NCBI RefSeq assembly: GCF_020630935.1 | Contig: NZ_JAHDIG010000011.1 | Span: forward strand, 1-54,796 | Length of the DNA: 54,796 bases | Direction of reading: 5' to 3' | Origin: Bernardetia sp. | GTDB lineage: Bacteria > Bacteroidota > Bacteroidia > Cytophagales > Bernardetiaceae | Shown: one piece after another, positions 29,401 through 51,134 of the stretch | Position numbering within the stretch: the first letter of the stretch is position 1 | Layout of the letters: the number at the start of each line of letters is the position of its first letter | Notes under the pieces: generated by a model | What the model was told of the DNA's origin: nothing | Seen by the model: the letters and a program-made list of their open reading frames with translations, nothing else | Database searches by the model: none | Program-made: the position numbers and the translations under genes

Positions 29401-30318
29401 ATGATTTTTCCATTTGCCATTTTTATCTATAAGCACGATACCCTCAGTAGCCGTTCCAATAGCAAACTGTCCGTTTGACAAAGCTGCCAAACTATGGATA
29501 GCATTTTTTTGAAAGAAATCATTTTTTTCGACTTCAAACCTACTTATTTTGTTAGTGGTAGTGTGGTGAGTATAGAATAAACCTTCCTTAGTAGCAATTA
29601 GAGTAACATTGTCAGCATATTCTACCATTCCCACTATTAAATGGTTATAAAGTAAGTTGGTATGCTCTAAATTATTGAGATAGTTATTGGTATATTCAAA
29701 AATACCTAGTTTAGCTTCCTGTACATAGAGTTTGTCGTGGATAACAAAAGCTGATAAAAAAGTATTTGCTCTTGGTTGAATAATCCTAAATTCTTCATTT
29801 TTGTAAATAAAAATAAAATCTTTAGTGAGGAAAAAAACTTCTTCTCCCAACACTAACGTTTTCCAAACATCTTTAAAATTTCTATATTTTTCTGGCATTT
29901 TACTAAACAAAGAAATATACTTTGTATTGCCTAAAGAGTCTAAATACGCATATCCAACATCTCCTACTCCACCAATATACACTCTATCAGAAAAGCTAGA
30001 ATAAGAAAGCGAACGCACTACACCTGTTCCTCCAATTTTGGTACGCTCCCATCTTTTACCATCGAACGATAGTAAATGCGTTGTATTTCCAATATAAACA
30101 ATGCCATTTTTGTCTTGTGTAATTGCCCAGTTTTGAGGGGAAGCACTATATTCTTTTGGAGAAAAGTTTTTCACAAAAAGCCACCCTGCCTCTTGGTAAG
30201 GCACATTTTGCGTATTTTGTTCTTGTGTACTGCTTTGCTGAGCAAAAGAAAGTGTGGAAGATAAAATACTGATACCGAGAAAAGTAAAAAATATCAGATA
30301 AAAAAATGTCTGTTTCAT
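26419..30318 (-). CDS. Beta-propeller/GAF sensor with SpoIIE phosphatase domain
   Basis: This 1299-residue protein has a signal peptide ending about residue 26 (STLSFAQ). A periplasmic two-component-type propeller spans about 30-690 (reg_prop-like blades such as NLWVALSQGVAHV). A Y_Y_Y domain follows (LQYRYRLLPSSLNWSPW), then one transmembrane helix (about 772-795) and a coiled coil. GAF spans about 865-1020, and the C-terminal PP2C/SpoIIE phosphatase about 1050-1299. Metal-binding aspartates are in VSGDFYW, VVDCTGHGVPGAF, TSDGLID and QRDDITIM. The architecture resembles hybrid two-component sensors of Bacteroidota but ends in a Ser/Thr phosphatase rather than a kinase, pointing to partner-switching output. 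No anti-sigma factor or STAS gene is nearby. Confidence 0.92.
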   Translation of the reverse strand: MKQTFFYLIFFTFLGISILSSTLSFAQQSSTQEQNTQNVPYQEAGWLFVKNFSPKEYSASPQNWAITQDKNGIVYIGNTTHLLSFDGKRWERTKIGGTGVVRSLSYSSFSDRVYIGGVGDVGYAYLDSLGNTKYISLFSKMPEKYRNFKDVWKTLVLGEEVFFLTKDFIFIYKNEEFRIIQPRANTFLSAFVIHDKLYVQEAKLGIFEYTNNYLNNLEHTNLLYNHLIVGMVEYADNVTLIATKEGLFYTHHTTTNKISRFEVEKNDFFQKNAIHSLAALSNGQFAIGTATEGIVLIDKNGKWKNHISDLKGLQDNAVWNLYAEKNGNLWVALSQGVAHVQTSWAYTYFGEESRLGKVNKITRFDGVLYAATGQGLFYYDAKLQIWEGVKEVLGQVWDLKIYDYDPKNPKLLIAGQAGIFAYNPLRKKIEKISELEAKHLLVDKTGIVYISTSEGLKKMNTAFKIEGTSLEEPLKRTVLLNQNQIWAETEYKGIVKIDKSTEDYQATFYDSLNGLPKAEIRQLVVNNEQLFVATSRGIFYLDTLKDEFISAVIANNTQKNPNFQAKNAIHSDVSLIESFAHYPKNQNGSVANAYWMVKDNQLLCYQDNEAIESAFLNLSNTDFNDIYEDNKYTLIENDFIKPIFTWVATSEGVYRYDYTQNSALPKDSLSIFVRYTKIRDSLVSNYGKHKLSTDFNNYSVQLVSTAFGQNEELQYRYRLLPSSLNWSPWTAKDEIEFNILPSGEYTLEIQAKNKTGELSNIVTRIFEVSTAWYQRWWAYIIYVGLVFLLAVGFTYLHERNLKKKNKELNSIIAERTQEISQKTEELEAQQKELLSQSQEVFNQKEELASQAEYLKKANKEVMRQKKSLQNANKRLEELSDITHEITSILDTKELTSAVFQRVIGLMPAEGFGVGLLNEQRNTIDFDDFFEKGKILEPHSDSLEDKNHPSVECLMEEKTITINNVAKVWKEKFEEHNITIEKGDLPYAVIYVPLIAEGQKFGVMTVQTFYELDYSEQDILLLQSIASATAIALSNIKAYQLIERRNQEITDSIRYAQTIQESILPTEKEIKRSVGEHYIIYKPKDIVSGDFYWTGYSEGFQYAAVVDCTGHGVPGAFMSMVGSSLLREILYEKEITSPADMLEHLDNEIRRSLRQTGKKGSNTDGMDIILIRYTYLENGNIELDFCGAKRPLIYKEADKEIVQLRGTSRSIGGIQRKKKPFEEHHLTLLPRTTLFLTSDGLIDQPNKDRKKYGTKRFLDKVSEWTHLPISMQESLLLEDLENFREEEEQRDDITIMAINL

Positions 30319-36114: not shown

Positions 36115-37281
36115 ATGGACAAAAAAGTAATTCTTTGTGTTGATGATGAACTTATTATCTTAAATAGTTTAAAACAAGAACTATCTGAACGTTTTGCTGA
36201 AACAATGATAATTGAAGTGGCAGAAAGTGGAGATGAAGGATTAGAAATTATTGATTTTTTTAGAGAAAAAGGCAAGGAAGTTGTTTTGATTATTTCAGAT
36301 TATATCATGCCTCAAATGAAAGGAGATGAGTTTTTGATAGAAGCTCATAAGGTACTTCCCAATACAATGAAAATACTTTTGACAGGACAAGCAAGCCTAG
36401 AAGGAGTTACGAATGCTGTAAATAAGACAAATTTATACCGATATATCCCCAAACCATGGAAGACCAGAGACTTGATAATGACTGTTGAGGGAGCTATCGA
36501 AAATTATAATAAAGATAAATTATTAAAAAGTCAGAATAGACAAATACAATCTAGCATTCGATATGCAGAGCGTATTCAGTCGGCAGTATTACCTTCTTCT
36601 AAATACCTTTCAGAAGTATTTCCAAATCATTTTGTTTTTTACCAACCTAAAGATGTTGTGAGTGGAGATTTTTATTGGGCTAGGGAAGAAGGAAACAAGA
36701 CAATTATTGCTGTGGCAGACTGTACAGGACACGGTGTTCTGGGGGCATTTATGTCATTGATTGGACATCAACTGCTTAATCGTGCTATTGTGGATAAAAA
36801 AATTTATTCTCCAGAAGAGATATTGAAAAATATGAACACTGCTATTAGAAACGTTTGGAGCGAAAAACAAGTTAATAGTCGTGAAGGAATGGAAGTCGCT
36901 ATTTGTGTAATTGATAAAGAAGAAAAGAAACTTTCTTTTGCTGGGGCAAGAAGACCTATTTGTATAATAGAAAATGGTAGTCTTAACTATATAAAAGGAG
37001 ATAGAGCAGGCATTGAAGGAAAAGAAAATGCTTTTTATAGCAAGCACGAGTTTGATTTGAGACCTAATACTCAAATTTATTTATATTCAGATGGTTACCA
37101 AGACCAGTTTGGAGGCATACAAAATAGGCGTTTCATGAGCAAAAACCTAAGAGATTTGTTTGTCTCAATAGAAAATAAATCATCAAAGGAGCAACTAGAA
37201 GAGATTGCTTCTACATTTACAGAGTGGAAAAGAAACTACGACCAGATAGATGACGTTCTTGTTTTAGGTATTCATTTATAA
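36115..37281 (+). CDS. Response regulator with SpoIIE (PP2C) phosphatase output
   Basis: This 388-residue protein has an N-terminal receiver (about 1-125): acidic pocket CVDDE, phospho-Asp in LIISDYIMPQMKGDE (about residue 62), Thr in LLTGQA, Lys in IPKPWK. A short coil with SIRYAERIQSAVLP leads to a C-terminal SpoIIE phosphatase (about 150-388), with aspartates in VSGDFYWA, VADCTGHGV, YSDGYQD and QIDDVLVL. It likely dephosphorylates a serine/threonine on an anti-anti-sigma-type protein when the receiver is activated. It is the first gene of a 13-kb signalling cluster. Its receiver resembles the lone receiver at 42037-42435, hinting that both are read by the same kinases. Confidence 0.92.
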   Translation: MDKKVILCVDDELIILNSLKQELSERFAETMIIEVAESGDEGLEIIDFFREKGKEVVLIISDYIMPQMKGDEFLIEAHKVLPNTMKILLTGQASLEGVTNAVNKTNLYRYIPKPWKTRDLIMTVEGAIENYNKDKLLKSQNRQIQSSIRYAERIQSAVLPSSKYLSEVFPNHFVFYQPKDVVSGDFYWAREEGNKTIIAVADCTGHGVLGAFMSLIGHQLLNRAIVDKKIYSPEEILKNMNTAIRNVWSEKQVNSREGMEVAICVIDKEEKKLSFAGARRPICIIENGSLNYIKGDRAGIEGKENAFYSKHEFDLRPNTQIYLYSDGYQDQFGGIQNRRFMSKNLRDLFVSIENKSSKEQLEEIASTFTEWKRNYDQIDDVLVLGIHL

Positions 37282-38127: not shown

Positions 38128-41100
38128 ATGAAACATAGAACTCCAACCTTATCCCCTACTCTAGAAAGACCAAAGTTTTATACTTTAGAGTTAGAAACTT
38201 ATTTGGAGCAGGTACAAGAAAAAGCTGATAAAATCTCTGATAAGTTTGTAGGTGTGTTCTTTATTTTAGGACTATGCCTTATGCCAATATATGAAACATG
38301 GACATTTACGATTGCCAACAGTCTAATAATTGCAGCACTTTATATGATAGCTCGCCTTGGACTTACTAATAAATCTATTTCTAGAATGGTAATTAGTGTA
38401 GTGTATGCGATTTTTATGCTTCAATTTATTGGTCAAATGCACGGCATGGCAGAAATGCACTTTTTCTTTTTTACCAATATTACATTATTAATAATCTATC
38501 AAGATTGGAAAATAATGATACCATACGGTGTCCTGACAATTTTGCATCACGCTCTTTTGGCGTACATACAAGTAGTATATGATATGCCTGAACTTGCAAA
38601 ATATTTTATTACTTATGGAGGAATGGATTTAGATGGAACTACACCCAATGTAACTTTATTTCAGTTATTTTTTCATTTTGGGTTAGTCGTACTAATGACG
38701 TTTGTGGCAGCTTGGTGGACTATTATTTTTAGAGAAAATAGTATTCGTCTTATGGAAAAGCAGTTTGAAGCACAGGCTCAAAATGAAGAGTTACGTTCTT
38801 CGGAAGAAGAGTTGAGACAGAATGCAGAAGAATTACAAAGTACAAACGACCAAATGCATGTCATTCAAAGAGAAATAGAAGAAAAACAAAAGTTATTGAA
38901 CCGTGCTGAAAAATTAGTGGGCTTGGCAAGCTATGAAATTGATTTGACTACGCAAAAATTAACACACTCTGATAACCTACCTTTTATCTATGGCGAAAAT
39001 AAGCTAAAAGATATGAAAAGAGTAATTGAGATTGCTCATCCAGAAGATGTTTATAAAGTAGTAAATATGCTACAAGATGCTGTACAAGGAAAAATAGAGA
39101 ATTACGATATTTCATATCGTTCGAAAGGAGAACAGTTTGAGGAATACAATCACTACAGAGCAGTCGGAGAGCTGATTAGAGATGCTATGGGCAATCCAGA
39201 AAAGTTAGTAGGAACAGTTCAAGATATTACAGAAAGCCTAAAAAAAGAAGAATACAACCAACTTTTGACTACTCTTATTGATAATACAGCCGATGCAATG
39301 CAGGTTGCTACCACAGATGGAAAATTTATCTACATGAATAAAGTAGGATTAGGACGTTTAGGACTGGAAGGAGAGGATATTACCAATTATACTACTGCTG
39401 ATATTGAATCTGTTTTTAAAGAAGAAGGAGTTTGGGAAAAACATGTAGAAGAAGTAAAGGCTGTCGATACATTTAAACTACAAAGTAAGAATATTGATAA
39501 ACGCACTGGTAAAGAGTTTCATGTTGAGGTTTCAATAAAACATACAGAAGTCAATGGAAAAGGATTTATGGTGGCTCTTTCTAGGGACACAACCGAACAG
39601 CAAAAAAGAGAACAGGAAGTAAAGACTAAAAATGAGCAACTGCGAGCATCAGAAGAAGTGTTGCGTAAAAACTATGAAGAGCTTCAGACAACACAAGAAG
39701 AACTACATCGCCAAACACAGCGTTTAGAACAAATTTTTGATGGTGTACCTGCCATGATTTATCAGTTCAAGATGGAAAAAGATGGGCAAATGTCGCTCCC
39801 AGTAGTAAGTAAGGGGGCAGAAGCAATCTATGGTTGCACCTCAGAAGAACTTATGAACGATGTTAGCTTAATTTTATCTTGTGTGCCAGCAGAAGATATA
39901 GCTATTTTTCAACAAAGTTTGGCAGAGTCAGCCCAAAACCTTACCACTTGGAATAATGACTCAAGAGTAGTAATAGACGGGAAAACAAAATGGGTCAGAG
40001 GAAACTCCAAACCTGTAAAAAATGATGATGGTAGTATTACGTGGAGTGGAATTATCCAAGAAATAACTAAGCAAAAAGAACTGGAAGAAGCTATAAAAGA
40101 TAAAAACTTAGAGTTACAAGCCTCAGCAGAAGAACTACGCCAAAACTATGAGCAACTCCAAAACACACAAGACCTTGTCAGTAATGCCTTTGCAGAGCTA
40201 GATGCTCAATTTACGGCTATCAGTACAACTCTTGGATATGTTGAAATGAATACAGATAGAAGTGTAGAACGAGTAAATAAATTATTTGCAGACTGGTTGG
40301 GTTACACTGTTGAAGAGTTACAAGGGCATAAACACATTGAGTTTATTCCAAATAATGAAGAAGACTTATTAAAATACGAACAACTTTGGGAACGACTAAG
40401 AACTGGCGAGACGGTTACAGAAATATTCAAAAGAAAAGCCAAAAACGGAGAAGAAGTTTGGCTTTATGGAGCATACTGCCCTGTCAAAGATAAAGACGGA
40501 AATATTTTCAAAATTATTAAAGTAGCTTCCAACTATAATAGTCAGAAAGAGTATGAAGACAAAATCAAGGCAGCCAATTATAGATTACAAAATCTTATCG
40601 AAAATGTAGGCGATTTAGTGTTTTTGTTAGATACTAACTTTGTCTTAAAGCAATATTATGCATCTTCAGATAAAGATTTGCTACTAAAACCTCAAGACTT
40701 CTTACAAAAGAAGATTACAGAGTTAGGTTTTCCTGATAAATCTTTACAGAAAATATTGGGAGCTTTAGAACAAACTATGTTAAATAAAGAAAAGGCAACA
40801 GTTGAATATAAATTAGAATTACCACACGGAACAGAATGGTTTAGTCTAATAGCCTCTCCTATTTTAAATGAAGAAAAAGAAATTGATGATATTCTATGCG
40901 TAACTCGTAATATAACGTATATCAAAAAAACTGAGTTAGCCGTACAGAAGCAAAACGAGTTATTATCCCAACAAAAAGAAAATATAGAAAAAGCTTTTAA
41001 TGAACTTCAAACTACCCAAACCCAGCTTATTCAAGCTGAAAAAATGGCAAGTTTAGGACAGCTTATTGCCAATATTGCACATGAAATAAATACACCTTTG

Positions 41101-41988
41101 GGAGCAATTCGTTCGTCAGCTATGAGTATTGAAGAAATTTTAGGAAAAACTTTGCCTCAATTGCCTTCATTCATAAAACAGTTAGATGATGATTTACTGC
41201 ATAGCTTCAACGAGTTTGTAAATGAATCTATTCAAAAAACAGACTTACTCTCCACCCGAGAAAAACGTACATTTAAGTACGACTTGATAGAACAATTAGA
41301 GGGCATGAAGATAGATAATGCAGAAAGGTACGCTGATTTGATTGTGGATATGAACATGCATAAGGAAAGTCATCTATTTGTTCCTTTTATGAAAAGCGAT
41401 AATACAGAAGAAATACTCAAAACAGCCTTTAACTTGTCCTCTATTGTCCGAAGCAACAAAACCATCAGAACAGCTACAGATAGAGCAGCTAAGATTGTTT
41501 TTGCTCTTAAAAATTATGCTCGCCAAGACCAAACTGGAGAAAAAGCAAAGGTTAATATCAATGAGAGTATAGAAACTACGCTTACTCTGTATCACAACCA
41601 AATCAAACATGGTATTGATGTTACAAGAGATTTGGATGAAATCCCTGAGTTTATGGGATATCCAGACGAACTTGTGCAAGTATGGACAAACATTATTCAT
41701 AATGCACTACAGGCCATGAACCACAAAGGACGTTTGTTTATTCAAAGTAGCGTGCAAGGCAACAACGTCTTAGTTGCTATTCAAGATACAGGAGGAGGTA
41801 TTCCAAAAGAAGTACAGGGGAAAATATTTGACGCTTTCTTTACTACTAAAGCAGCAGGACAAGGAAGTGGCTTAGGGTTAGATATTACTAAGAAAATTAT
41901 AGAAAAACACAATGGAAGAATTTGGTTTGCCTCCTTAGAAGGAGTTGGAACTACGTTTTTTATAGAAATTCCCCTTACAAATAATTAA
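38128..41988 (+). CDS. Five-PAS sensor histidine kinase with His-rich multi-TM domain
   Basis: This 1286-residue kinase has an N-terminal six-helix membrane domain (about 35-205) with a His-rich segment GQMHGMAEMHFFFF and a TILHHALLAY pair. A coiled coil follows, then about five PAS domains (about 265-375, 380-490, 530-650, 680-800 and 815-935). The DHp helix carries phospho-acceptor H985 (NIAHEINTPLGAI). An inserted segment with LLSTREKR and YADLIVDM separates it from DHp helix 2 (RAAKIVFALKNYARQ). HATPase follows (N-box NIIHNALQAM, DTGGGIP, GSGLGLDIT). There is no receiver. It is 48 bp upstream of the lone receiver gene. It shares the kinase core with three downstream kinases. The signal is unknown; the His-rich helices suggest metal or heme. 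Confidence 0.93.
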   Translation: MKHRTPTLSPTLERPKFYTLELETYLEQVQEKADKISDKFVGVFFILGLCLMPIYETWTFTIANSLIIAALYMIARLGLTNKSISRMVISVVYAIFMLQFIGQMHGMAEMHFFFFTNITLLIIYQDWKIMIPYGVLTILHHALLAYIQVVYDMPELAKYFITYGGMDLDGTTPNVTLFQLFFHFGLVVLMTFVAAWWTIIFRENSIRLMEKQFEAQAQNEELRSSEEELRQNAEELQSTNDQMHVIQREIEEKQKLLNRAEKLVGLASYEIDLTTQKLTHSDNLPFIYGENKLKDMKRVIEIAHPEDVYKVVNMLQDAVQGKIENYDISYRSKGEQFEEYNHYRAVGELIRDAMGNPEKLVGTVQDITESLKKEEYNQLLTTLIDNTADAMQVATTDGKFIYMNKVGLGRLGLEGEDITNYTTADIESVFKEEGVWEKHVEEVKAVDTFKLQSKNIDKRTGKEFHVEVSIKHTEVNGKGFMVALSRDTTEQQKREQEVKTKNEQLRASEEVLRKNYEELQTTQEELHRQTQRLEQIFDGVPAMIYQFKMEKDGQMSLPVVSKGAEAIYGCTSEELMNDVSLILSCVPAEDIAIFQQSLAESAQNLTTWNNDSRVVIDGKTKWVRGNSKPVKNDDGSITWSGIIQEITKQKELEEAIKDKNLELQASAEELRQNYEQLQNTQDLVSNAFAELDAQFTAISTTLGYVEMNTDRSVERVNKLFADWLGYTVEELQGHKHIEFIPNNEEDLLKYEQLWERLRTGETVTEIFKRKAKNGEEVWLYGAYCPVKDKDGNIFKIIKVASNYNSQKEYEDKIKAANYRLQNLIENVGDLVFLLDTNFVLKQYYASSDKDLLLKPQDFLQKKITELGFPDKSLQKILGALEQTMLNKEKATVEYKLELPHGTEWFSLIASPILNEEKEIDDILCVTRNITYIKKTELAVQKQNELLSQQKENIEKAFNELQTTQTQLIQAEKMASLGQLIANIAHEINTPLGAIRSSAMSIEEILGKTLPQLPSFIKQLDDDLLHSFNEFVNESIQKTDLLSTREKRTFKYDLIEQLEGMKIDNAERYADLIVDMNMHKESHLFVPFMKSDNTEEILKTAFNLSSIVRSNKTIRTATDRAAKIVFALKNYARQDQTGEKAKVNINESIETTLTLYHNQIKHGIDVTRDLDEIPEFMGYPDELVQVWTNIIHNALQAMNHKGRLFIQSSVQGNNVLVAIQDTGGGIPKEVQGKIFDAFFTTKAAGQGSGLGLDITKKIIEKHNGRIWFASLEGVGTTFFIEIPLTNN

Positions 41989-42036
41989 GAACTACTTACT
42001 TATTAAAATATCCACAAATTATTCTAATTATATATT

Positions 42037-42435
42037 ATGGCTAAAAAAAATAAAGCGATTCTTTGCGTCGATGACGACCCAATGATACTGATGAGCTTAA
42101 AGCTCCAACTCACACAAAGTTTTGATGGTCAGTTTGTCATAGAAACGGCTGAAAGTGGGGAGGAAGCACTAGAACTCATAGAGTTTTTGGTAGATAGAAA
42201 TATAGATACACTCCTTATTATTAGCGATTGGCTGATGCCAAAAATGAAAGGAGACGAACTACTCGTACAAGTAAAAGACCGTTTTCCGAAGGTAGGGCAA
42301 ATTATGCTCTCTGGGCAAGCCGAAAATGATGCTGTTCAAAATGCCTTTAAAAACTCTAATCTAAAGTATTTCATTTCTAAGCCTTGGAATAAGCAGGATT
42401 TAATTGATAAGGTAAATGAAGTATTACAAAATTAG
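42037..42435 (+). CDS. Single-domain response regulator
   Basis: This 132-residue protein is a receiver domain only: CVDDDP acidic pocket, phospho-Asp in LIISDWLMPKMKGDE (about residue 66), Ser in IMLSGQ, and Lys in ISKPWN. It resembles the receiver of the SpoIIE protein at 36115 (shared IISDxxMPxMKGDE, KPW and similar helices). It is placed between two kinases that lack receivers, so it is a natural phosphoryl acceptor or shuttle for them. With no output domain it may act by protein interaction or as a phosphate sink. It is followed 17 bp later by a perfect 16-bp hairpin. Confidence 0.93.
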   Translation: MAKKNKAILCVDDDPMILMSLKLQLTQSFDGQFVIETAESGEEALELIEFLVDRNIDTLLIISDWLMPKMKGDELLVQVKDRFPKVGQIMLSGQAENDAVQNAFKNSNLKYFISKPWNKQDLIDKVNEVLQN

Positions 42436-42452
42436 AAACACTACTGCAACTC

Positions 42453-42490
42453 AATTTCTGATAATCTATTTGTGTAGATTATCAGAAATT
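42453..42490 (+). terminator. Perfect 16-bp hairpin after the lone receiver
   Basis: AATTTCTGATAATCTA (42453-42468) and TAGATTATCAGAAATT (42475-42490) are perfectly complementary with a 6-nt loop. No T-run follows (ACTCATTAAAG), so it may be a weak terminator, a 3' stabiliser for the receiver mRNA, or a processing site before the next kinase. Confidence 0.6.
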
Positions 42491-42561
42491 ACTCATTAAA
42501 GTATTTTAATCAGAATATTTGATAAAGAATATAAAAGACATTCTCTACTTCCTTTCTACTC

Positions 42562-45525
42562 ATGAATAATAATGTAACCAAAACTATAAAACGCTTAGAG
42601 ATTGCCTATATCACAGCAATTAGCTTTGTCGCTATAGCTTTGATTATTGGTCAGTTCGTAACACAAAACTTTTTTGATAATCAAAAAGATGATGCGAAGG
42701 TAATTAATATTTCAGGTAGGCAGCGTATGCTAAGTCAGAAAATCACAAAGGAAGCTCTGATCTATTACAACAATAATTTAGATAAAAATCAGCAAGACAT
42801 CTTGCTCAATACTTTCCAACTTTTTGAAACTTCTCATCTCAACTTAATTAAAAAGTCTAATTCATTTGGTTTTTCAGAGCATTACGAAATATCCCCAAAA
42901 ATAAACTCATACTATGATAGTTTAGATATTTCTTTTCAAAAATTAAAGGAGAATATCAGTGTTCTTACAAGACAAAATGTAGATAGCTTGTCTAAAAAAA
43001 CAGCTCTCAATAACATTTTAGAGGCAGAAAAAGAATTTTTGCCCATCATGAACCGAATTGTTTTTGAATATGAAGCTGAAGCAAATGTAAAGCTAGATTT
43101 GCTTAGAAGAATAGAAATTGGAGTAGTAACATTGTCTATTCTTGTCCTACTTATTGTAGTCTTTCTGATTTTCCGTCCTGTTGTTAGAAAGACCAAATCA
43201 TCTATGATGCAAGTTGTAGAAATGAACAATGATTTAGAGGCTACAAATGAAGAACTTACATCAGCAGAGGAAGAACTTAGACAAAACTTGGAAGAACTAA
43301 AAACTTCTCAAGAAAATCTGATGAATTTGCAAGCAGAGCAGCAGAAGTTTATCAGTTTGGTAGAGCATGTAGATGCTTTTATTGCTATTACTAGCTTAGA
43401 AGGTAAAATAAAATACCTCAATGCAGCAGGCAAAAGAATGACTGGACTAGATGATGAGTATGAAGACAAAATTATTACTAATTTTTATGACGATGAAATT
43501 TTAAAGAAAGTCATAGAAATAGCTACCCCTTCTACTTTAGAAAACGGCGAGTGGAACGGAGAGTGCAACATTGTAAACACAACCACAAGTGAAGTCTTTA
43601 ATACATTAATAAGTACCTTCCTACTCACAGACTCTCATACGCAAAAACCTACTGCTAGAGCTATCGTTCAAACAGACATTACAAAACGTAAAAAAGTAGA
43701 AGAATACCAAAAATTGCTACACACTCTTATCAATAATATTTCTGATGCTTTACAGGTAGCAACTAAAGACGGGAAGTTTATCTATATGAATGAAGTAAGT
43801 CTAAACAGACTTGGCTTGGAAGGTAAAGACATAACAAAATATACTGTTGCTGATATAGAACCTGCATTTAAAGAAGATGGAGCTTGGGAAAAATATATAG
43901 AAGCTGTAAAGGCAGCAGGCACATTGGTTGTAAGAAGTAGAAATATTGATAAAAAAACAAACAAAGAATTTCCAGTAGAAGTATCTGTCAAATATGTAGA
44001 GATAAATGATAAAGGATTTATGGTAGCTATCTCTAGGGATATAACTGAACAGCTAAACAAAGAGCAAAGAATTCAGCGTCAGAATGAACAACTGAAAATT
44101 ATCCAAGAGTATTTACGTCAGAAAACACAAGAATTAGAAGTCATAAATATTGCCTTAAATCAAAGCACTATACTTTCTATTGCTGATAAGAAAGGACACA
44201 TTACAAAAATAAATGATAAATTCTGTAAAATCTCAAAATATACAGAAGCAGAACTCACAGGAAAAGACCATAATATCGTAAATTCTAATTATCATCCAAA
44301 AGAGTTTTGGCAGAAAATGTGGCAAACCATTACGAGAGGAAATACATGGAGAGCAGAAGTAAAAAATAAAGCAAAAGACGGTTCTATTTATTGGGTAGAT
44401 ACAGTCATAAACCCTCTTTTTAATGCAGATGGGAAGATTACAGGCTATTTGTCTATACGAAACTTAATTACAGATAAAAAACTTGCTGAGGAAAAGTTAC
44501 TCCAACAAAAAAATGAAATAGAAAGTGCCTACAAGGAACTCAAATCTGCACAAAAACAGCTTGTTCAAGCTGAAAAAATGGCAAGTTTGGGACAGCTTGT
44601 TGCCAATATTGCACATGAGATAAATACACCTTTGGGAGCAATTCGTTCTTCATCAGTAAGCATTGAAACAGTTTTAATAAAGGTATTGCCTGCTTTGCCT
44701 AATTTTATTCAAGCACTAGATGAAACTACTTTATCTACATTCAATAAATTCTTGGTAAAATCTATACATAAAAGAAATACACTCTCTAGCCGAGAAAAAC
44801 GAAGAATCAAATATAGTTTAGTAGAGAAGTTTGAAACACTAGATGTATGGGATGAGGAGTTTTATGCCAATTTGATAACTGATATGGGGATGTACGAAGA
44901 AAAAGAGCTGTTTATGCCATTATTAGATTCAAATCACCCCGAAGAACTCAAGAAGCAGATTTTTGAAATGCTCTCTGAACTCTCCATTGTTATCAGAAGC
45001 AATCATACTATCAAGGAAGCTACCAGAAGGGCTGCCAAAACGGTATTTGCACTCAAGAGTTTTGCTCGTCAAGAACATTCAGAGGAGAAACAAGAAGTAC
45101 ACTTAAATAAAACAATAGAAACCACTCTTACACTCTACAACAACCAAATCAAACAAGGGATAGATGTAATAAGAAAACTTGAAGACATTCCTACATTTTT
45201 AGGCTATCCAGATGAGCTTATGCAGGTCTGGACAAATATTATTCATAATGCTATTCAAGCCATGAAAGGCAAAGGAGAATTGTTTGTCTCTACCAAAAAA
45301 CAAGACGATAAGGTAACAGTATCTATTCGTGATACAGGAAGTGGCATTCCAAAAGAAATACAAGATAGAATTTTTGAAGCCTTTTTTACCACCAAGCCAA
45401 CAGGAGAAGGAAGTGGATTAGGACTAGACATCACTAAAAAAGTAGTTGCAAGACACGATGGAAAAATTTGGTTTGAAACCGAAGAAGGTATAGGAACTAC
45501 GTTTTTTATAGAAATTCCATTGTAA
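42562..45525 (+). CDS. PilJ-type/PAS sensor histidine kinase
   Basis: This 987-residue kinase has a transmembrane helix (about 17-37) and a periplasmic PilJ-like four-helix sensor with INISGRQRMLSQKITKEAL (about 49-67), as in nitrate/pilin-type sensors. A second helix follows (about 193-213), then a coiled coil and three PAS domains (about 265-380, 386-497 and 525-645). DHp has H685 (NIAHEINTPLG), the LSSREKR/YANLITDM insert, and helix 2 RAAKTVFALKSFARQ. HATPase is complete. The second PAS is strikingly like a PAS of the kinase at 38128. No receiver is present. It is 20 bp from the next kinase, with which it is probably cotranscribed. Confidence 0.93.
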   Translation: MNNNVTKTIKRLEIAYITAISFVAIALIIGQFVTQNFFDNQKDDAKVINISGRQRMLSQKITKEALIYYNNNLDKNQQDILLNTFQLFETSHLNLIKKSNSFGFSEHYEISPKINSYYDSLDISFQKLKENISVLTRQNVDSLSKKTALNNILEAEKEFLPIMNRIVFEYEAEANVKLDLLRRIEIGVVTLSILVLLIVVFLIFRPVVRKTKSSMMQVVEMNNDLEATNEELTSAEEELRQNLEELKTSQENLMNLQAEQQKFISLVEHVDAFIAITSLEGKIKYLNAAGKRMTGLDDEYEDKIITNFYDDEILKKVIEIATPSTLENGEWNGECNIVNTTTSEVFNTLISTFLLTDSHTQKPTARAIVQTDITKRKKVEEYQKLLHTLINNISDALQVATKDGKFIYMNEVSLNRLGLEGKDITKYTVADIEPAFKEDGAWEKYIEAVKAAGTLVVRSRNIDKKTNKEFPVEVSVKYVEINDKGFMVAISRDITEQLNKEQRIQRQNEQLKIIQEYLRQKTQELEVINIALNQSTILSIADKKGHITKINDKFCKISKYTEAELTGKDHNIVNSNYHPKEFWQKMWQTITRGNTWRAEVKNKAKDGSIYWVDTVINPLFNADGKITGYLSIRNLITDKKLAEEKLLQQKNEIESAYKELKSAQKQLVQAEKMASLGQLVANIAHEINTPLGAIRSSSVSIETVLIKVLPALPNFIQALDETTLSTFNKFLVKSIHKRNTLSSREKRRIKYSLVEKFETLDVWDEEFYANLITDMGMYEEKELFMPLLDSNHPEELKKQIFEMLSELSIVIRSNHTIKEATRRAAKTVFALKSFARQEHSEEKQEVHLNKTIETTLTLYNNQIKQGIDVIRKLEDIPTFLGYPDELMQVWTNIIHNAIQAMKGKGELFVSTKKQDDKVTVSIRDTGSGIPKEIQDRIFEAFFTTKPTGEGSGLGLDITKKVVARHDGKIWFETEEGIGTTFFIEIPL

Positions 45526-45545
45526 AATAAATATCATGAAACAAT

Positions 45546-47306
45546 ATGAGTATATATCAAAAACTCATCGATAACGGAGTTTCACATTTAGAAACACAGA
45601 TAGAACAAGAGGCAGGTCGTATAACAAATATGATGTTGTTAACAATGACCTTTGCTACTTTTGGAATAGGCATAGCATTTCTCATTTTCGCAATTCCCAA
45701 AAGTATTCTTTATGGCATATTAGCTGTGCTTTTTGCTGGTGTAACAGGACTTTTACTTAACAGACTAGGTTTCTTTAAGAGTAGTAAGTTCATATTTCTG
45801 ATGACATTTAATTTGGTAGGTCTTTACATCTCTCTGAAAATCAATTTTGGAGATTATATTCTTTTCATATTAAATCCTTTACTTATTGCTCCTTTTCTTA
45901 TTTTTACTCATAAAGAAAAAGTATGGAAATATTCATTGATAGCCTTGCCAATGCTATGTTATTCATTTTTATTTTATACAGATTTTACTGTATCTACCTT
46001 AAAAAAAGTAGAGATTCCAGCAGAATTATTATCTATCATTCAGATAAACGATATAATTACTGTATCTTTTATGATAGTAGCATTAATACAAGGCTTCGTT
46101 TATGCTATCAATAGACAACAGGCAGAATTGAAAAAGAGTATAGAAGCGTTAGAAGAAAAAAATAATCTCATAGAACATCAACAAGAGGAATTACAAAACC
46201 AAAACGAAGAACTCCAAACCTCTGAAGAAGAACTCAAACAAAACTTAGAAGAACTCAATGCTACACAAGAAGAGCTACGCAGACAAAAAGAAGAGGTAGA
46301 ACAAGCCTTTCTACAACTCAAAACTACACAAAAACAGCTTATTCAGTCTGAAAAAATGGCAAGTTTAGGTCAGCTTGTTGCCAATATTGCTCACGAGATA
46401 AATACGCCTCTTGGTGCTATTCGCTCTTCGGCAGGTAATATTTCTAATAACTTTAAAAAAAATCTATTAGAACTTGCTAGAATAGCAGAAACTGCCCCCA
46501 TAGAAACATCAGAGCTATTTATTGAACTTTTAGAAAAATCTAGCGACAAACTTGACCTTCTCACAACAAGGGAAAAAAGAAAAATACGTTTTGCATTATC
46601 TGATAGGTTAGAAAAAAAAGGAGTAGAAGAAGCAGAAAATTATGCTGATATACTTGTTGAGATGGGAATGCAAACCGAAGAAGACTTGTTCATCAAGTTA
46701 CTCAATTCCACCAATGGAGAAAGACTGATTGATATTGCTTTTCAGCTTTCCAATATTATTAAGTGCAATCAAACTATTCAAACAGCCACAAACAGAGCAG
46801 CCAAAATTGTCTTTGCACTTAAAAAATTTGCTCGTCAAGACCAAACTGACAAAAAAACACCTGTTAATCTAAATGAAAGCATAAATACCACTCTCACACT
46901 TTATCACAACCAAATAAAACATGGCATAGATGTATATCAAAATTTTGTACAAACACCAACGTTTATGGGGTATCCAGACGAACTTATACAGGTTTGGACG
47001 AATATCATCCATAATGCCATTCAAGCTATGAAGGGCAAAGGAAAACTAATCGTTTCTACTCATAATGAGCAAGATAAAGTATTAATTTCTATAGAAGATA
47101 CAGGTATAGGCATTGCGAAAGAAATTCAAGGTAAGATATTTGATGCTTTTTTTACAACTAAAGCCATTGGAGAAGGAAGTGGCTTAGGATTAGATATTAC
47201 TCGTAAAATTATTGAAAAACATAATGGCAAGATTTGGTTCGAAACCAAAGAAGGAGTCGGAACTACTTTTTTTGTGGAAATACCTACAAACCTAAAGAAT
47301 GAATGA
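45546..47306 (+). CDS. Multi-TM sensor histidine kinase (cluster kinase 3)
   Basis: This 586-residue kinase has six transmembrane helices (about 30-195) as its only sensor, a Glu/Gln-rich coiled coil, then DHp H283 (NIAHEINTPLG). The inserted segment has LTTREKR and YADILVEM, followed by helix 2 RAAKIVFALKKFARQ and HATPase (NIIHNAIQAM, DTGIGIA, GSGLGLDIT). It has no PAS, GAF or REC domain. Its stop codon overlaps the start of the next kinase by 8 nt (ATGAATGA), indicating translational coupling. The membrane domain is not one I can name. It is a paralogue of the other three cluster kinases in the catalytic part only. Confidence 0.93.
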   Translation: MSIYQKLIDNGVSHLETQIEQEAGRITNMMLLTMTFATFGIGIAFLIFAIPKSILYGILAVLFAGVTGLLLNRLGFFKSSKFIFLMTFNLVGLYISLKINFGDYILFILNPLLIAPFLIFTHKEKVWKYSLIALPMLCYSFLFYTDFTVSTLKKVEIPAELLSIIQINDIITVSFMIVALIQGFVYAINRQQAELKKSIEALEEKNNLIEHQQEELQNQNEELQTSEEELKQNLEELNATQEELRRQKEEVEQAFLQLKTTQKQLIQSEKMASLGQLVANIAHEINTPLGAIRSSAGNISNNFKKNLLELARIAETAPIETSELFIELLEKSSDKLDLLTTREKRKIRFALSDRLEKKGVEEAENYADILVEMGMQTEEDLFIKLLNSTNGERLIDIAFQLSNIIKCNQTIQTATNRAAKIVFALKKFARQDQTDKKTPVNLNESINTTLTLYHNQIKHGIDVYQNFVQTPTFMGYPDELIQVWTNIIHNAIQAMKGKGKLIVSTHNEQDKVLISIEDTGIGIAKEIQGKIFDAFFTTKAIGEGSGLGLDITRKIIEKHNGKIWFETKEGVGTTFFVEIPTNLKNE

Positions 47307-49065
47307 GTTAAGAAAAGTATTGCGTCTTATTGTCTATGGCGATGAAAATAGACAATATCCAGATACATATTTTGAGGAACAAAATTACCAGTGTGCAAGG
47401 CTTTTGCCCCTTGTCAGTATTGTCTTTATGTTTATTTGGTTGGGTTACATTCCCTTAGATAGAGAACTGTATCCAAATGTAGAAGGAATTCTTTATTTAA
47501 GAGTAGGCTTATCAGTTGTTAGTATTATTACTTTTGGATTGTATTGGATTCCATTTTTTAGAAAAAATGCCATCTATTTGATGAGCATTTTGGGAGCGTA
47601 TGCTGTTGTAAGTACAGCTATTATCACAGGACTTACAAAAGGAAATCCTTCATATATGGGAGGTTTTTGTATGGTCTTGGTTGCTTCTCTTTTTGTGCCT
47701 CTACGTATTGATGTATATTATTCAGTAATGCTCATTGCCCTACTTTCTTTTTTTGCTACTTTATCTATTTTGGATGTCAATATAATGGCAGATATCCCAA
47801 AATATAGTCTAAACGATTTGGTAAGTGCCGTTATTTTGGCTTTTATTTTTACTTTTTTAATGGACAGAGACAGACACTCTTACTATAAAAAATCAAAAGA
47901 TAGAGACAAACAACGCAAACAAATACAACAACAAGCTCTCTTAATCCAAGAAAATAATAAAGAACTAAAACAGTCTGAACACGAACTCAAACGGAACCTA
48001 GAAGAACTAAAAACCACACAAGAGGAGCTAAAAAAACAAAAAACAGAGGTGGAAAATGCTTATAAAGAACTTCAATTTACCCAAAAACAGCTTATCCAGT
48101 CTGAAAAATTAGCTAGTTTAGGACAGCTTATTGCTAACATTGCCCACGAAATAAATACGCCTTTGGGAGCTATTCAATCTTCTGCTGAAGGTGTTGAGAG
48201 TATTCTTTTAGAGACTCTTCCAGAGCTTCCTACGTTTCTCAAAAAACTAGATGACCAAATTACACCTGTTTTCAACAAATTTGTAGAAAAATCATCTAAA
48301 CAAACAGAATTACTATCGACACGAGAACAACGAAATGTAAAATATAAGCTGATAGACGAACTAGAAAGTTTAGGTTTTTCAAATATTGAGGGATACGCCG
48401 ATTTGATTGCCGATATGAATATGCAAGATGAAAAAGAATGGATAATTCAGCTCTTACAAACTAAAAATAGAGAAGAAGTTTTCGAAACAGCTTACCAACT
48501 CTCTAGTATTATACGAAGCAATCAGACTATTAAAGAAGCTACTAAAAGGGCTGGAAAAACGGTAATTGCCCTCAAAAATTTTGCTCGCCAAGAGTATTCA
48601 GAAGAAAAATCAGAAGTAGATATTAATCAAAGCCTAGAAACGACATTAGTACTTTATCACAATCAAATCAAACACGGAATAGATATAAAGCGAAATTTAG
48701 ATTATATCCCCTCTTTTTTAGGTTACCCAGACGAACTTATGCAAGTTTGGACAAATCTTATCCATAATGCGATTCAAGCTATGAAAGGTAAGGGAGAGCT
48801 TACCATTTCTACTCAAACAAATGACAATAAAGTGCTTATCTCCATAGAAGACACAGGAGGAGGAATACCAAAAGAAATCCAAAATAAGATATTTGATACT
48901 TTTTTTACTACAAAACCTATAGGTGAAGGAAGTGGGTTAGGGTTAGATATTACAAAAAAAATCATTCAACGACACGATGGCAAAATTTGGTTTGAGAGTG
49001 AGGAAGGAATTGGAACTACATTTTTTATTGAAATTCCTATTCATCAAAACAAAACAATTTCTTAA
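47299..49065 (+). CDS. Multi-TM sensor histidine kinase (cluster kinase 4)
   Basis: This 588-residue kinase has five or six transmembrane helices (about 33-190) ending in a basic DRDRHSYYKKSKDRDKQRK stretch. A coiled coil follows, then DHp with H283 (NIAHEINTPLG, same position as the previous kinase). The inserted LLSTREQR/YADLIADM segment, helix 2 RAGKTVIALKNFARQ and HATPase complete it (NLIHNAIQAM, DTGGGIP, GSGLGLDIT). The membrane domain differs from that of kinase 3 in sequence. The start overlaps the previous stop. It is the last gene of the kinase cluster, followed by a terminator-like hairpin before rimP. Confidence 0.93.
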   Translation: MNELRKVLRLIVYGDENRQYPDTYFEEQNYQCARLLPLVSIVFMFIWLGYIPLDRELYPNVEGILYLRVGLSVVSIITFGLYWIPFFRKNAIYLMSILGAYAVVSTAIITGLTKGNPSYMGGFCMVLVASLFVPLRIDVYYSVMLIALLSFFATLSILDVNIMADIPKYSLNDLVSAVILAFIFTFLMDRDRHSYYKKSKDRDKQRKQIQQQALLIQENNKELKQSEHELKRNLEELKTTQEELKKQKTEVENAYKELQFTQKQLIQSEKLASLGQLIANIAHEINTPLGAIQSSAEGVESILLETLPELPTFLKKLDDQITPVFNKFVEKSSKQTELLSTREQRNVKYKLIDELESLGFSNIEGYADLIADMNMQDEKEWIIQLLQTKNREEVFETAYQLSSIIRSNQTIKEATKRAGKTVIALKNFARQEYSEEKSEVDINQSLETTLVLYHNQIKHGIDIKRNLDYIPSFLGYPDELMQVWTNLIHNAIQAMKGKGELTISTQTNDNKVLISIEDTGGGIPKEIQNKIFDTFFTTKPIGEGSGLGLDITKKIIQRHDGKIWFESEEGIGTTFFIEIPIHQNKTIS

Positions 49066-49107: not shown

Positions 49108-49129
49108 TAACCAATTAAAGAAAAAAAGA

Positions 49130-49165
49130 AATGGAAGGCAGAAAAAGCCTTCCATTTTCATTTTA
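49130..49165 (+). terminator. Terminator-like hairpin before rimP
   Basis: AATGGAAGGC (49130-49139) pairs with GCCTTCCATT (49147-49156), 7-nt loop, followed by a T-rich stretch. It ends the kinase cluster or, if the promoter at 49077 is used, forms an attenuator-like leader of rimP. Confidence 0.75.
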
Positions 49166-49218: not shown

Positions 49219-49821
49219 ATGTCCGATTCAAAAACAGCACAAATCAATTCTATTAAAGAAAAAATAAGTGATTTTATTCAAAAAGCAACTTCCCCAGAAG
49301 CAACACAAGAAGGAAGTCAGATGGCTGAATATGCTTTATCACAACATATTTTTTTGTTAGAAACTCAAATTTCCAAAACCAGAACGCCAAAAATAGTCGT
49401 AATTATAGATGGAGATAATGGCGTCGGAATTGCTGACTGTGCCAACGTGAGCCGTAAACTAGGAGCTTACTTTGAAGAGGAAAGTCCATTTGGAAAAGAT
49501 GAAAATGGAGAAGACAAAGCCTATAATTTGGAAGTTACTTCGCCTGGTATTGATTATGGTTTGCATATATTTAGGCAATATCCTCAACACGTAGGGCGTA
49601 CTTTAGAATTTGAACTAAAAGATGGCACAAAAAAACTAGGAAAACTACAATCTATTGAAGAAACAGAGGTAGATGGAGAAATAAAAAAGGTTTTTCAAAT
49701 TACAGAAGAATATCAAGTAGCTGAAGGAAAAAAAGGCAAACTCAAAACAAAATACAAACCTGCTACTATCAACTTTGATGAGGTCAAAGTAGCGTACGTA
49801 CAAATATCATTTAAGAAATAA
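49219..49821 (+). CDS. rimP: Ribosome maturation factor RimP
   Basis: This 200-residue protein is needed for 30S subunit maturation. The N-terminal alpha/beta domain shows VVIIDGDNGVGIADCANVSRKLG and LEVTSPGIDYGLHIFRQYPQHVGR, both RimP signatures (DxDxGVxxxDC and EVSSPG-hydrophobic-L equivalents). The C-terminal SH3-like domain holds FELKDGTKKLGKLQ. At 200 residues it is longer than the usual 150-160. The extra sequence is a Lys/Glu loop before the last strand (EEYQVAEGKKGKLKTKYK) and an insertion near EEESPFGKDENGEDK. It precedes nusA, the conserved order of this operon. The spacing to nusA is 62 bp with a small hairpin. Confidence 0.9.
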   Translation: MSDSKTAQINSIKEKISDFIQKATSPEATQEGSQMAEYALSQHIFLLETQISKTRTPKIVVIIDGDNGVGIADCANVSRKLGAYFEEESPFGKDENGEDKAYNLEVTSPGIDYGLHIFRQYPQHVGRTLEFELKDGTKKLGKLQSIEETEVDGEIKKVFQITEEYQVAEGKKGKLKTKYKPATINFDEVKVAYVQISFKK

Positions 49822-49844
49822 TAAAATTTGACTTTTAATTAATT

Positions 49845-49866
49845 AAACAAGGTTTTAACCTTGTTT
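49845..49866 (+). promoter_or_regulatory. Hairpin in the rimP-nusA gap
   Basis: AAACAAGGTT (49845-49854) is a perfect complement of AACCTTGTTT (49857-49866) with only a 2-nt loop (in practice a few terminal pairs open). It lies 18 bp before the nusA ATG. No U-run follows, so it is more likely a processing or regulatory hairpin than a terminator. Confidence 0.45.
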
Positions 49867-49883
49867 GAAGAATATATACAAAA

Positions 49884-51134
49884 ATGAGCATAGAAACTAC
49901 AACATTAATAGATTCGTTTGCAGACTTTGCAAGACTAAAGCGCATCGATCGTCCGACGATGATTCGTATTTTGGAAGATGTTTTCCGTACCCTTATTCGT
50001 AGAAAGTATCGTTCTGATGAAAACTTTGATGTCATTGTCAATATCGAAAAAGGAGACTTAGAAATTTGGCAATACAGAAATATCATTGATGATGATGAGC
50101 CAGAATACGACGAACAAACCGAAATTCGTTTGTCAGAAGCTCAAAAAATTGAGCCAGACTTCGAAGTAGGCGAAGATGTAGCCCAAGAAATAAAGATTGA
50201 GGACTTTGGACGCAGACTTGTCCAAACAGCTCGCCAAACACTTATCCAAAAGGTAAGAGATTTGGAAAAAGACTTACTCTATCAAAAATACAAGGAATAC
50301 GTAGGAGAAATTGTTACGTGTGAAGTCTATCAAGTTTTGAAACGTGAGGTAGTCTTGCAAGACAGTGAAGGTAAAGAATTGAGTTTGCCAAAAGGAGAAC
50401 AAATTCCTAAAGACCGTTTTCGTAAAGGTGATAGTGTTCGTGCTGTTGTTCATCGTGTAGAGATGCAAAATGGAAATCCAAAAATTATCCTTTCACGTAC
50501 TGCACCATTGTTTTTGGAAAAATTATTCGAATCTGAAATTCCAGAAATTGAAGAGGGAACAATCGCAGTCAGAAAAGTAGTCAGAGAAGCTGGCGAACGT
50601 GCAAAAGTAGCTGTAGAATCTTTTGACGACCGTATCGACCCTGTTGGTGCGTGTGTGGGAATGAAAGGTTCTCGTATTCATGCTATCGTTAGAGAACTTT
50701 GCAATGAAAATATTGATGTTATCAATTATACAGAAAACTTAGAGCTCTTGATTTCTCGTGCGCTTAGTCCTGCCAAAACAAGCTCTATGAAAATAGATGA
50801 GGACAACAAGCGTGTAGCTGTTTTCTTAAAGAGAGACCAAATTTCATTAGCTATCGGAAAAGGTGGGCAGAATATTCGCCTAGCAGGAAAGTTAGTAGAT
50901 TATGAAATTGACGTATTCAGAGAAGAAGCCATTGACGACTTTGAGGACGATGTGGACTTGTCAGAATTTAAAGATGCTATCGATGATTGGATTATCGATG
51001 AGTTTCATAAAGTAGGTTTCGATACAGCAAGAAGCGTATTGGAATACAACCGAGAAGACTTGATTCGTCGTGTAGATTTGGAAGAAGAAACGATTGATTT
51101 TGTCTTGGAAGTTCTTAAAAAAGAATTTGAATAA
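49884..51134 (+). CDS. nusA: Transcription termination/antitermination factor NusA
   Basis: This 416-residue factor binds RNA polymerase and nascent RNA. It has an N-terminal domain (about 1-130), an S1 domain (about 135-205, GEIVTCEVYQVLKREVVLQ), and KH1 with ESFDDRIDPVGACVGMKGSRIHAIVREL. KH2 follows, with KRDQISLAIGKGGQNIRLAGKL. A C-terminal extension (about 355-416) has a helix-hairpin-helix-like VGFDTARSVLEYNREDL. Length fits Bacteroidota NusA. It is downstream of rimP as in most bacteria. A short stem follows its stop, then a long gap before infB. Confidence 0.96.
   Translation: MSIETTTLIDSFADFARLKRIDRPTMIRILEDVFRTLIRRKYRSDENFDVIVNIEKGDLEIWQYRNIIDDDEPEYDEQTEIRLSEAQKIEPDFEVGEDVAQEIKIEDFGRRLVQTARQTLIQKVRDLEKDLLYQKYKEYVGEIVTCEVYQVLKREVVLQDSEGKELSLPKGEQIPKDRFRKGDSVRAVVHRVEMQNGNPKIILSRTAPLFLEKLFESEIPEIEEGTIAVRKVVREAGERAKVAVESFDDRIDPVGACVGMKGSRIHAIVRELCNENIDVINYTENLELLISRALSPAKTSSMKIDEDNKRVAVFLKRDQISLAIGKGGQNIRLAGKLVDYEIDVFREEAIDDFEDDVDLSEFKDAIDDWIIDEFHKVGFDTARSVLEYNREDLIRRVDLEEETIDFVLEVLKKEFE

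Follow-up and report, generated by a model that had tools for sequence, protein, structure and literature searches.

A predicted helical domain splits the DHp hairpin in a multi-phylum class of histidine kinases encoded beside one receiver subfamily

Within a 54,796-nt contig of Bernardetia sp. (NZ_JAHDIG010000011.1 of assembly GCF_020630935.1; as a whole the window, whose numbering gives all positions below), four histidine kinases carry a real and conserved helical domain that splits the hairpin formed by the two helices of their dimerization and histidine-phosphotransfer (DHp) domain and that distinguishes a class of kinases having receivers of their own, a domain undescribed within the databases and literature that we searched. 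Here we show how this insert is built (by structure prediction), how well it is conserved, how far it reaches and that the kinases bearing it are paired in genomes with one subfamily of receiver (REC) domains, and we infer that it is a docking site for these receivers.

Four window kinases with a split hairpin

The four kinases lie on the forward strand, in the open reading frames starting at 38128, 42562, 45546 and 47299 from which an earlier note on this DNA had read them, and each has a split DHp followed by a catalytic and ATP-binding (CA) domain. Kinase 1 (38128-41988, 1286 amino acids [aa]) carries PAS repeats, kinase 2 (42562-45525, 987 aa) carries PilJ and PAS repeats, and kinases 3 (45546-47306, 586 aa; no Pfam sensor above the cut-off) and 4 (47299-49065, 588 aa) have a hydrophobic N-terminus. 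The insert domain occupies 46494-46715 in kinase 3 (helices at model residues 90-105, 112-128, 134-143 and 150-157), 48247-48468 in kinase 4 (placed by alignment and the kinase 3 model), 41182-41403 in kinase 1 (boundaries carried over from that model) and 44716-44949 in kinase 2, where it is four residues longer. We checked the 40-50 residues that the earlier note gave for an ordinary hairpin through HisKA-HATPase spacing only. The distance from the start of the HisKA match to that of the HATPase match in Pfam is 203, 207, 203 and 203 residues in kinases 1-4 versus 113 and 111 in two ordinary kinases of the window (7938-11846 and 5300-7681, respectively), a net insertion of 90-96 residues that bears out the proposed split.

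The HisKA family (PF00512) scores 25.4, 22.0, 26.1 and 29.3 bits in kinases 1-4, only the last passing the cut-off of 26.9, and the matches cover positions 2-43, 2-23, 2-31 and 2-46 of 66, whereas the two ordinary kinases match it almost whole (positions 2-66 and 2-63). None of the four thus has a full-length HisKA match in Pfam, and their second helix taken alone matches no Pfam family; the CA domains match HATPase_c (PF02518) with 88.3-98.3 bits (cut-off 26.4). The window kinases resemble HisKA kinases (PF00512 plus PF02518; ZraS, KinB and HK853 are solved) in the H-box helix, the CA domain and the DHp-CA architecture, and differ from them in having a 90-96-residue helical domain between the DHp helices, with HisKA matching little beyond helix 1. 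The modelled kinase core matches the structures of ZraS (Z 21.4, rmsd 8.8, 179 residues aligned) and KinB (Z 20.5, rmsd 2.3, 156 aligned). From their sequences, kinases 1-4 appear to work like HisKA kinases with a split hairpin.

Over the block of DHp and insert (163 aa in kinase 3), the other three copies are 48-52% identical to kinase 3, and in all four the aligned block agrees with the earlier note's description, containing the His motif, followed by L(S/T)(S/T)RE(K/Q)R, the YA(D/N) segment and helix 2. The phospho-acceptor helix (DHp helix 1) is almost identical among the four and their N-termini differ in the Pfam scan, as expected if the kinases share receivers.

Predicted fold and search for a known domain

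We modelled the core of kinase 3 with AlphaFold2 from a 79-row alignment of relatives (mean pLDDT 83.9, pTM 0.60) and obtained, in order, DHp helix 1 (residues 2-87, with His 54), the four insert helices, helix 2 (162-201) and the CA domain. Folded alone as a 91-residue piece, the insert reached a pLDDT of 92.5 and a pTM of 0.80, so that the prediction places a compact domain of helices at the hairpin tip and no loose linker, as the earlier note had surmised. Because Pfam gives no match to helix 2, the assignment of that helix rests on the AlphaFold2 model, an alignment (A3) and partial NCBIfam matches that start at or near it.

The insert is unnamed within Pfam, NCBIfam, the PDB and the literature searched, which upholds the view that it is not an already defined HisKA subtype. 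First, Pfam over the 79 inserts returned no consistent family, the largest (HTH_RNase_II) being found in 8 of 79 with a best E of 3.7e-4. Second, among the best 25 NCBIfam matches per protein the only one above the cut-off was TIGR00229, a PAS model that matches kinases 1 and 2 outside the insert. Third, a sequence search of the PDB gave no explaining match for the insert (best E 0.014, to BRR2 over 34 residues), and none of 45 Foldseek matches of the insert to the PDB had E <= 0.001; absence from such fold and sequence match lists excludes no family. The best VIA-align match of the insert was chorismate mutase (Z 4.0, rmsd 3.1, 75 aligned), below the level that means kinship. No title or abstract opening in the literature searched describes this insert or the kinase-REC pairing reported below.

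A kinase class spanning several phyla

The earlier note had placed the insert in four paralogous kinases, where it is indeed present, but underestimated its reach. A scan of genome contigs confirmed at least 525 relatives among 581 stretches, and the best 80 of them, at 79 loci, come from Cyanobacteriota, Bernardetiaceae and other Cytophagales, Thiotrichaceae and other Pseudomonadota, KSB1 and Desulfobacterales. A distance of 142 positions separates the residue before the phospho-acceptor His from the A of the ALK-type motif in 50 of 61 rows (range 140-146; the other 18 of the 79 rows did not match both patterns and were left out), and insert length is kept in relatives from Cyanobacteriota, Thiotrichaceae and Bernardetiaceae. 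The phospho-acceptor His is invariant (79/79 rows), as is one Arg of the (S/T)xRExR motif (79/79), a conservation of the Arg that exceeds chance. The insert profile alone detected the class in 11/11 genomes of the window's family, 27/194 sampled from its order, 4/296 sampled from its phylum (its own genome included) and 11/146 sampled from the cyanobacterial phylum (the seed genome included); in viral contigs, none of 30 pattern matches was a relative. The insert marks a multi-phylum histidine kinase class.

In a quick tree, the Bacteroidota rows form one group (support 92). Kinases 1 and 3 each cluster with relatives encoded in other genomes, and a single six-row group unites kinases 2 and 4 with further relatives of this kind, so the array is ancient and did not arise by recent duplication. 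The insert breaks the HisKA match and the class is poorly annotated (six of the eight annotated plasmid matches are named only 'ATP-binding protein'), so that its kinases and receivers are easily overlooked.

Two further kinase groups are among the closest known to the class. The cyanobacterial dual Ser/Thr-His kinases (HstK family, cbSTKIII; PMC2176072) are like it in that one cyanobacterial protein of our set (L036), with partial Pkinase, AAA_16 and GAF domains, has the same insert core and adjoins a REC of the subfamily described below and a REC-cyclase protein. Unlike the HstK family, however, the four window kinases have no Pkinase or AAA match in Pfam, and the account of that family mentions no insert in the parts of it available to us. 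Kinases with an HEINNPVNFI H-box (a neighbour at locus L037) likewise have a lengthened hairpin, with about 79 residues from the His to a comparable point of helix 2 (by eye), but it is shorter than that of the class and lacks the (S/T)xRExR motif. We weighed CdgK as a possible characterised member of the class and dropped it, because its deleted kinase segment (residues 1130-1392, His 1149), as given in the CdgK/CdgS paper PMC9927289, is too short for the insert.

A second clade with a homologous insert

Kinases with an AHELNNPA H-box, also labelled 'ATP-binding protein', have 146-155 residues from the His to the Lys of helix 2 (15 loci) and occur in Actinomycetota (Streptomyces, Nocardia, Tsukamurella and Nonomuraea), in Paraburkholderia, in cyanobacteria and in the genus of the window itself. 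They resemble the window kinases (clade I) in their lengthened hairpin and homologous insert, as supported by a profile comparison of the two inserts (probability 91.3, E 9.6e-7; with other settings, score 28.1 versus at most 10.4 in 30 column shuffles), and differ from them in their H-box and in forming a separate deep clade (clade II) in the quick tree. The clade I insert profile did not pick up clade II kinases at E 1e-3, and by eye the clade II N-terminus resembles a cyclic-nucleotide-binding domain.

At 6 of the 15 clade II loci (L145, L147, L150, L151, L152 and L155), a REC fused to a larger protein is encoded directly upstream of the kinase; of the nine others, three are shorter than 3 kb, so that neighbours are barely visible. 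The larger protein is an FAD-dependent oxidoreductase in all three annotated records, and such a fusion beside AHELNNPA kinases is possibly a redox enzyme under phosphorylation control. In the window's own genome, the AHELNNPA kinase (contig C32) and the REC fusion (contig C47) are on separate contigs. Beside the former (G000:C32, locus L007) we noted by eye a STAS-like and an RsbW-like gene (2556-2894 and 2972-3355 of the locus, both forward), which are possible targets of a SpoIIE output.

Genomic pairing with one receiver subfamily

A free single-domain REC that the earlier note had not listed is encoded between kinases 1 and 2 (42037-42435, forward strand, 132 aa), 49 nt after kinase 1. 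It matches Response_reg (PF00072) with 69.1 bits (cut-off 30.2), and its acidic pair, phospho-Asp and Lys are present. A second REC of the same subfamily (191.7 bits) forms part of a REC-SpoIIE protein upstream of the kinases (36115-37281, forward strand, 388 aa), whose PP2C-type output suggests partner switching.

We then asked how often RECs of this subfamily accompany insert kinases elsewhere. After setting aside four loci at contig ends, a subfamily REC is adjacent or fused in 60 of the remaining 75 loci, representing 38 of 42 organism groups (labelled by hand); as the REC profile was made from RECs adjoining insert kinases, this count is descriptive only. By hand count, 42 of the 75 loci have the order kinase, free REC, longer REC protein downstream, and all three longer REC proteins that were scanned contain a cyclase domain.

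Two further tests used RECs most, though not all, of which lie outside the profile. In four genomes of the window's genus (6 of 156 PF00072 matches left out), 8 of 14 subfamily RECs have an insert kinase within 3 kb (7 of 12 when the two window RECs, which belong to the profile, are left out) versus 0 of 136 other RECs; within 10 kb the numbers are 11/14 versus 2/136. In six genomes of other groups, with three clade II kinases kept apart from the ordinary ones, a subfamily REC lies within 3 kb of 15/17 insert kinases versus 0/70 ordinary kinases, and 20/22 subfamily RECs are near an insert kinase. Without the six seed loci, 9 of 11 insert kinases are still paired, and one of the two misses is at a contig end. 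The score gaps are clear (171.9 then 101.2 bits; 165.2 then 111.5 bits). The genomic pairing of insert kinases with one REC subfamily is thus shown, and it is new.

The four same-genus genomes encode 28 insert kinases to 14 subfamily RECs. The earlier proposal that the insert could couple four sensors to one regulator is supported by gene context (the REC within the cluster, this numerical excess of kinases and the near-identical phospho-acceptor helices).

At several loci a subfamily REC and an insert kinase share one open reading frame (L028 5291-6850, L052 2933-4948, L057 3461-4960, L058 3437-4951, L064 203-1687, L070 5798-7270 and L088 2999-4945), so some kinases of the class may themselves receive phosphate. 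Locus L160 (G308:C93) encodes two kinds of subfamily REC, free and fused, and no insert kinase was found on that contig.

Receiver spacing and co-divergence

In subfamily RECs the stretch from the acidic pocket to the phospho-Asp is about eight residues longer, and the additional residues lie between strands 1 and 3. Counted from the second acidic residue, the phospho-Asp comes 51 positions later in 60 of 65 alignment rows (50-52 in the remainder), and the phospho-Asp and the Lys are likewise 51 apart in 65 of 65. The former spacing is likewise 51 in all 14 subfamily RECs of the four genomes (16 rows, two repeated). In a control of RECs fetched from these genomes plus the REC of one ordinary window kinase, 13 of the 21 rows outside the subfamily have a spacing of 42-43, five of 48-50 and three of 51. 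The last three are REC fusions of 558-572 aa, the type that adjoins clade II insert kinases elsewhere, and four REC fusions adjoining clade II kinases also have 51 (the pattern failed in three of seven).

An identity-based mirror analysis of 56 kinase-REC pairs suggested that the insert co-diverges with the REC, as far as such sequence comparison can tell: although the insert is the least conserved part of the kinase (mean identity 0.43), its identity tracks REC identity best (partial correlation 0.349 versus 0.298 for CA), and it leads again in a thinned set (n = 27; 0.364 versus 0.233 for the next part). None of 500 permutations was as high for the insert, compared with 20/500 for DHp1.

Docking and its alternatives

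Specificity between kinases and receivers is usually attributed to a few residues in the two DHp helices. On balance we lean, if not by much, towards the insert being a docking domain, which would insulate the class together with its receivers and allow several sensors to use these in common. The insert would add a second contact surface for the REC subfamily at the DHp tip, and the additional residues that precede the phospho-Asp in these RECs would face that tip. Several kinases with different sensors would then feed common receivers and the class would be insulated from the other receivers of the cell. In the window, kinases 1-4 would phosphorylate two putative partners, the free REC and REC-SpoIIE. 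The former would serve as a common intermediate or a sink for phosphate, and the latter, in its phosphorylated form, would act as a phosphatase on a partner-switching protein. If this is true, a whole added domain tied to one receiver subfamily amounts to a natural experiment on the evolution of insulation, and the class is a possible source of orthogonal circuits. With more reserve, as something we consider somewhat less probable than its negation, the DHp-tip domain and the matching REC residues may have evolved together before the two deep kinase clades split, giving an insulated multi-phylum kinase-receiver class in which sensor arrays converge on one or two receivers through a second layer of specificity.

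Several points weigh against docking. First, 15 of the 75 loci have no subfamily REC nearby, and two Leptospira plasmid kinases with a hairpin of similar length have no annotated REC visible within 3-4 kb. Second, in the four same-genus genomes, a subfamily REC is missing within 10 kb, or on the contig, for 8 of the 28 insert kinases. Two of these genomes also have REC fusions of REC-SpoIIE size at a distance of 224-538 kb from any insert kinase, so that a shared output cannot rest on adjacency alone. Third, the origin of the REC profile means that the pairing tests are not fully blind. Fourth, the 48-50 spacing of five other REC rows indicates that longer stretches are not unique to the class, and that the receiver side with the extra residues faces the DHp tip is our assumption from the geometry of HK853-RR468. 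Finally, the mirror analysis is confounded by phylogeny and its margin is modest: none of the 500 permutations was as high for DHp2 and CA either, and the insert came first in just 155/300 half-samples and 196/300 thinned samples.

We regard it as unlikely, though the most serious of the alternatives, that the insert is structural or regulatory inside the kinase (setting the length or stability of the DHp dimer, or controlling CA) without touching the receiver, the link to the REC reflecting shared descent and joint transfer. Kinase and receiver are usually neighbours, so that co-inheritance alone would yield the pairing; helix 1 of the model is long and continuous to residue 87, and CA and DHp2 track REC divergence too. 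Such a role alone does not explain why the 51 spacing is common to RECs of both clades or why the least-conserved insert tracks the REC best, although both arguments are weak. That the insert instead serves to dock or sense another molecule (a small ligand, an accessory protein or adjacent kinases of a signalling array), with kinase activity tuned from within the DHp, seems improbable to us: the compact separate fold with an invariant Arg and the several insert kinases encoded together in the genus Bernardetia would suit such a role, yet no other conserved partner gene emerged (the REC subfamily being the sole neighbour systematically looked for) and no fold relative points to a ligand site. 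A long linker joining unrelated helices, or an artefact of mis-alignment, is a scarcely credible reading of the segment despite the failure of HisKA to match helix 2 by itself, given the near-constant length in the 61 measured rows, the conserved motif, the recurrence in several phyla and the high-confidence fold in two predictions, which contradicts a linker.

Gene order and neighbouring genes

By their layout, kinase 1 and the free REC seem to form one unit, whose possible end is a perfect 16-bp inverted repeat with a 6-nt loop 3' of the REC (42453-42490). Kinases 2-4 look like a second unit, with a 20-nt gap between kinases 2 and 3 and an 8-nt overlap between kinases 3 and 4, and a terminator-like hairpin follows kinase 4 (49128-49158, forward strand), as found by a consensus scan only, which returned 8 hits in the region versus 6.5 expected in shuffles. 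Further downstream (49219-51134) are RimP (Pfam match) and an apparent NusA (by eye). Elsewhere in the window, the reverse strand encodes a propeller/Y_Y_Y/GAF protein ending in SpoIIE (26419-30318) and a HAMP/GAF protein (21420-23597).

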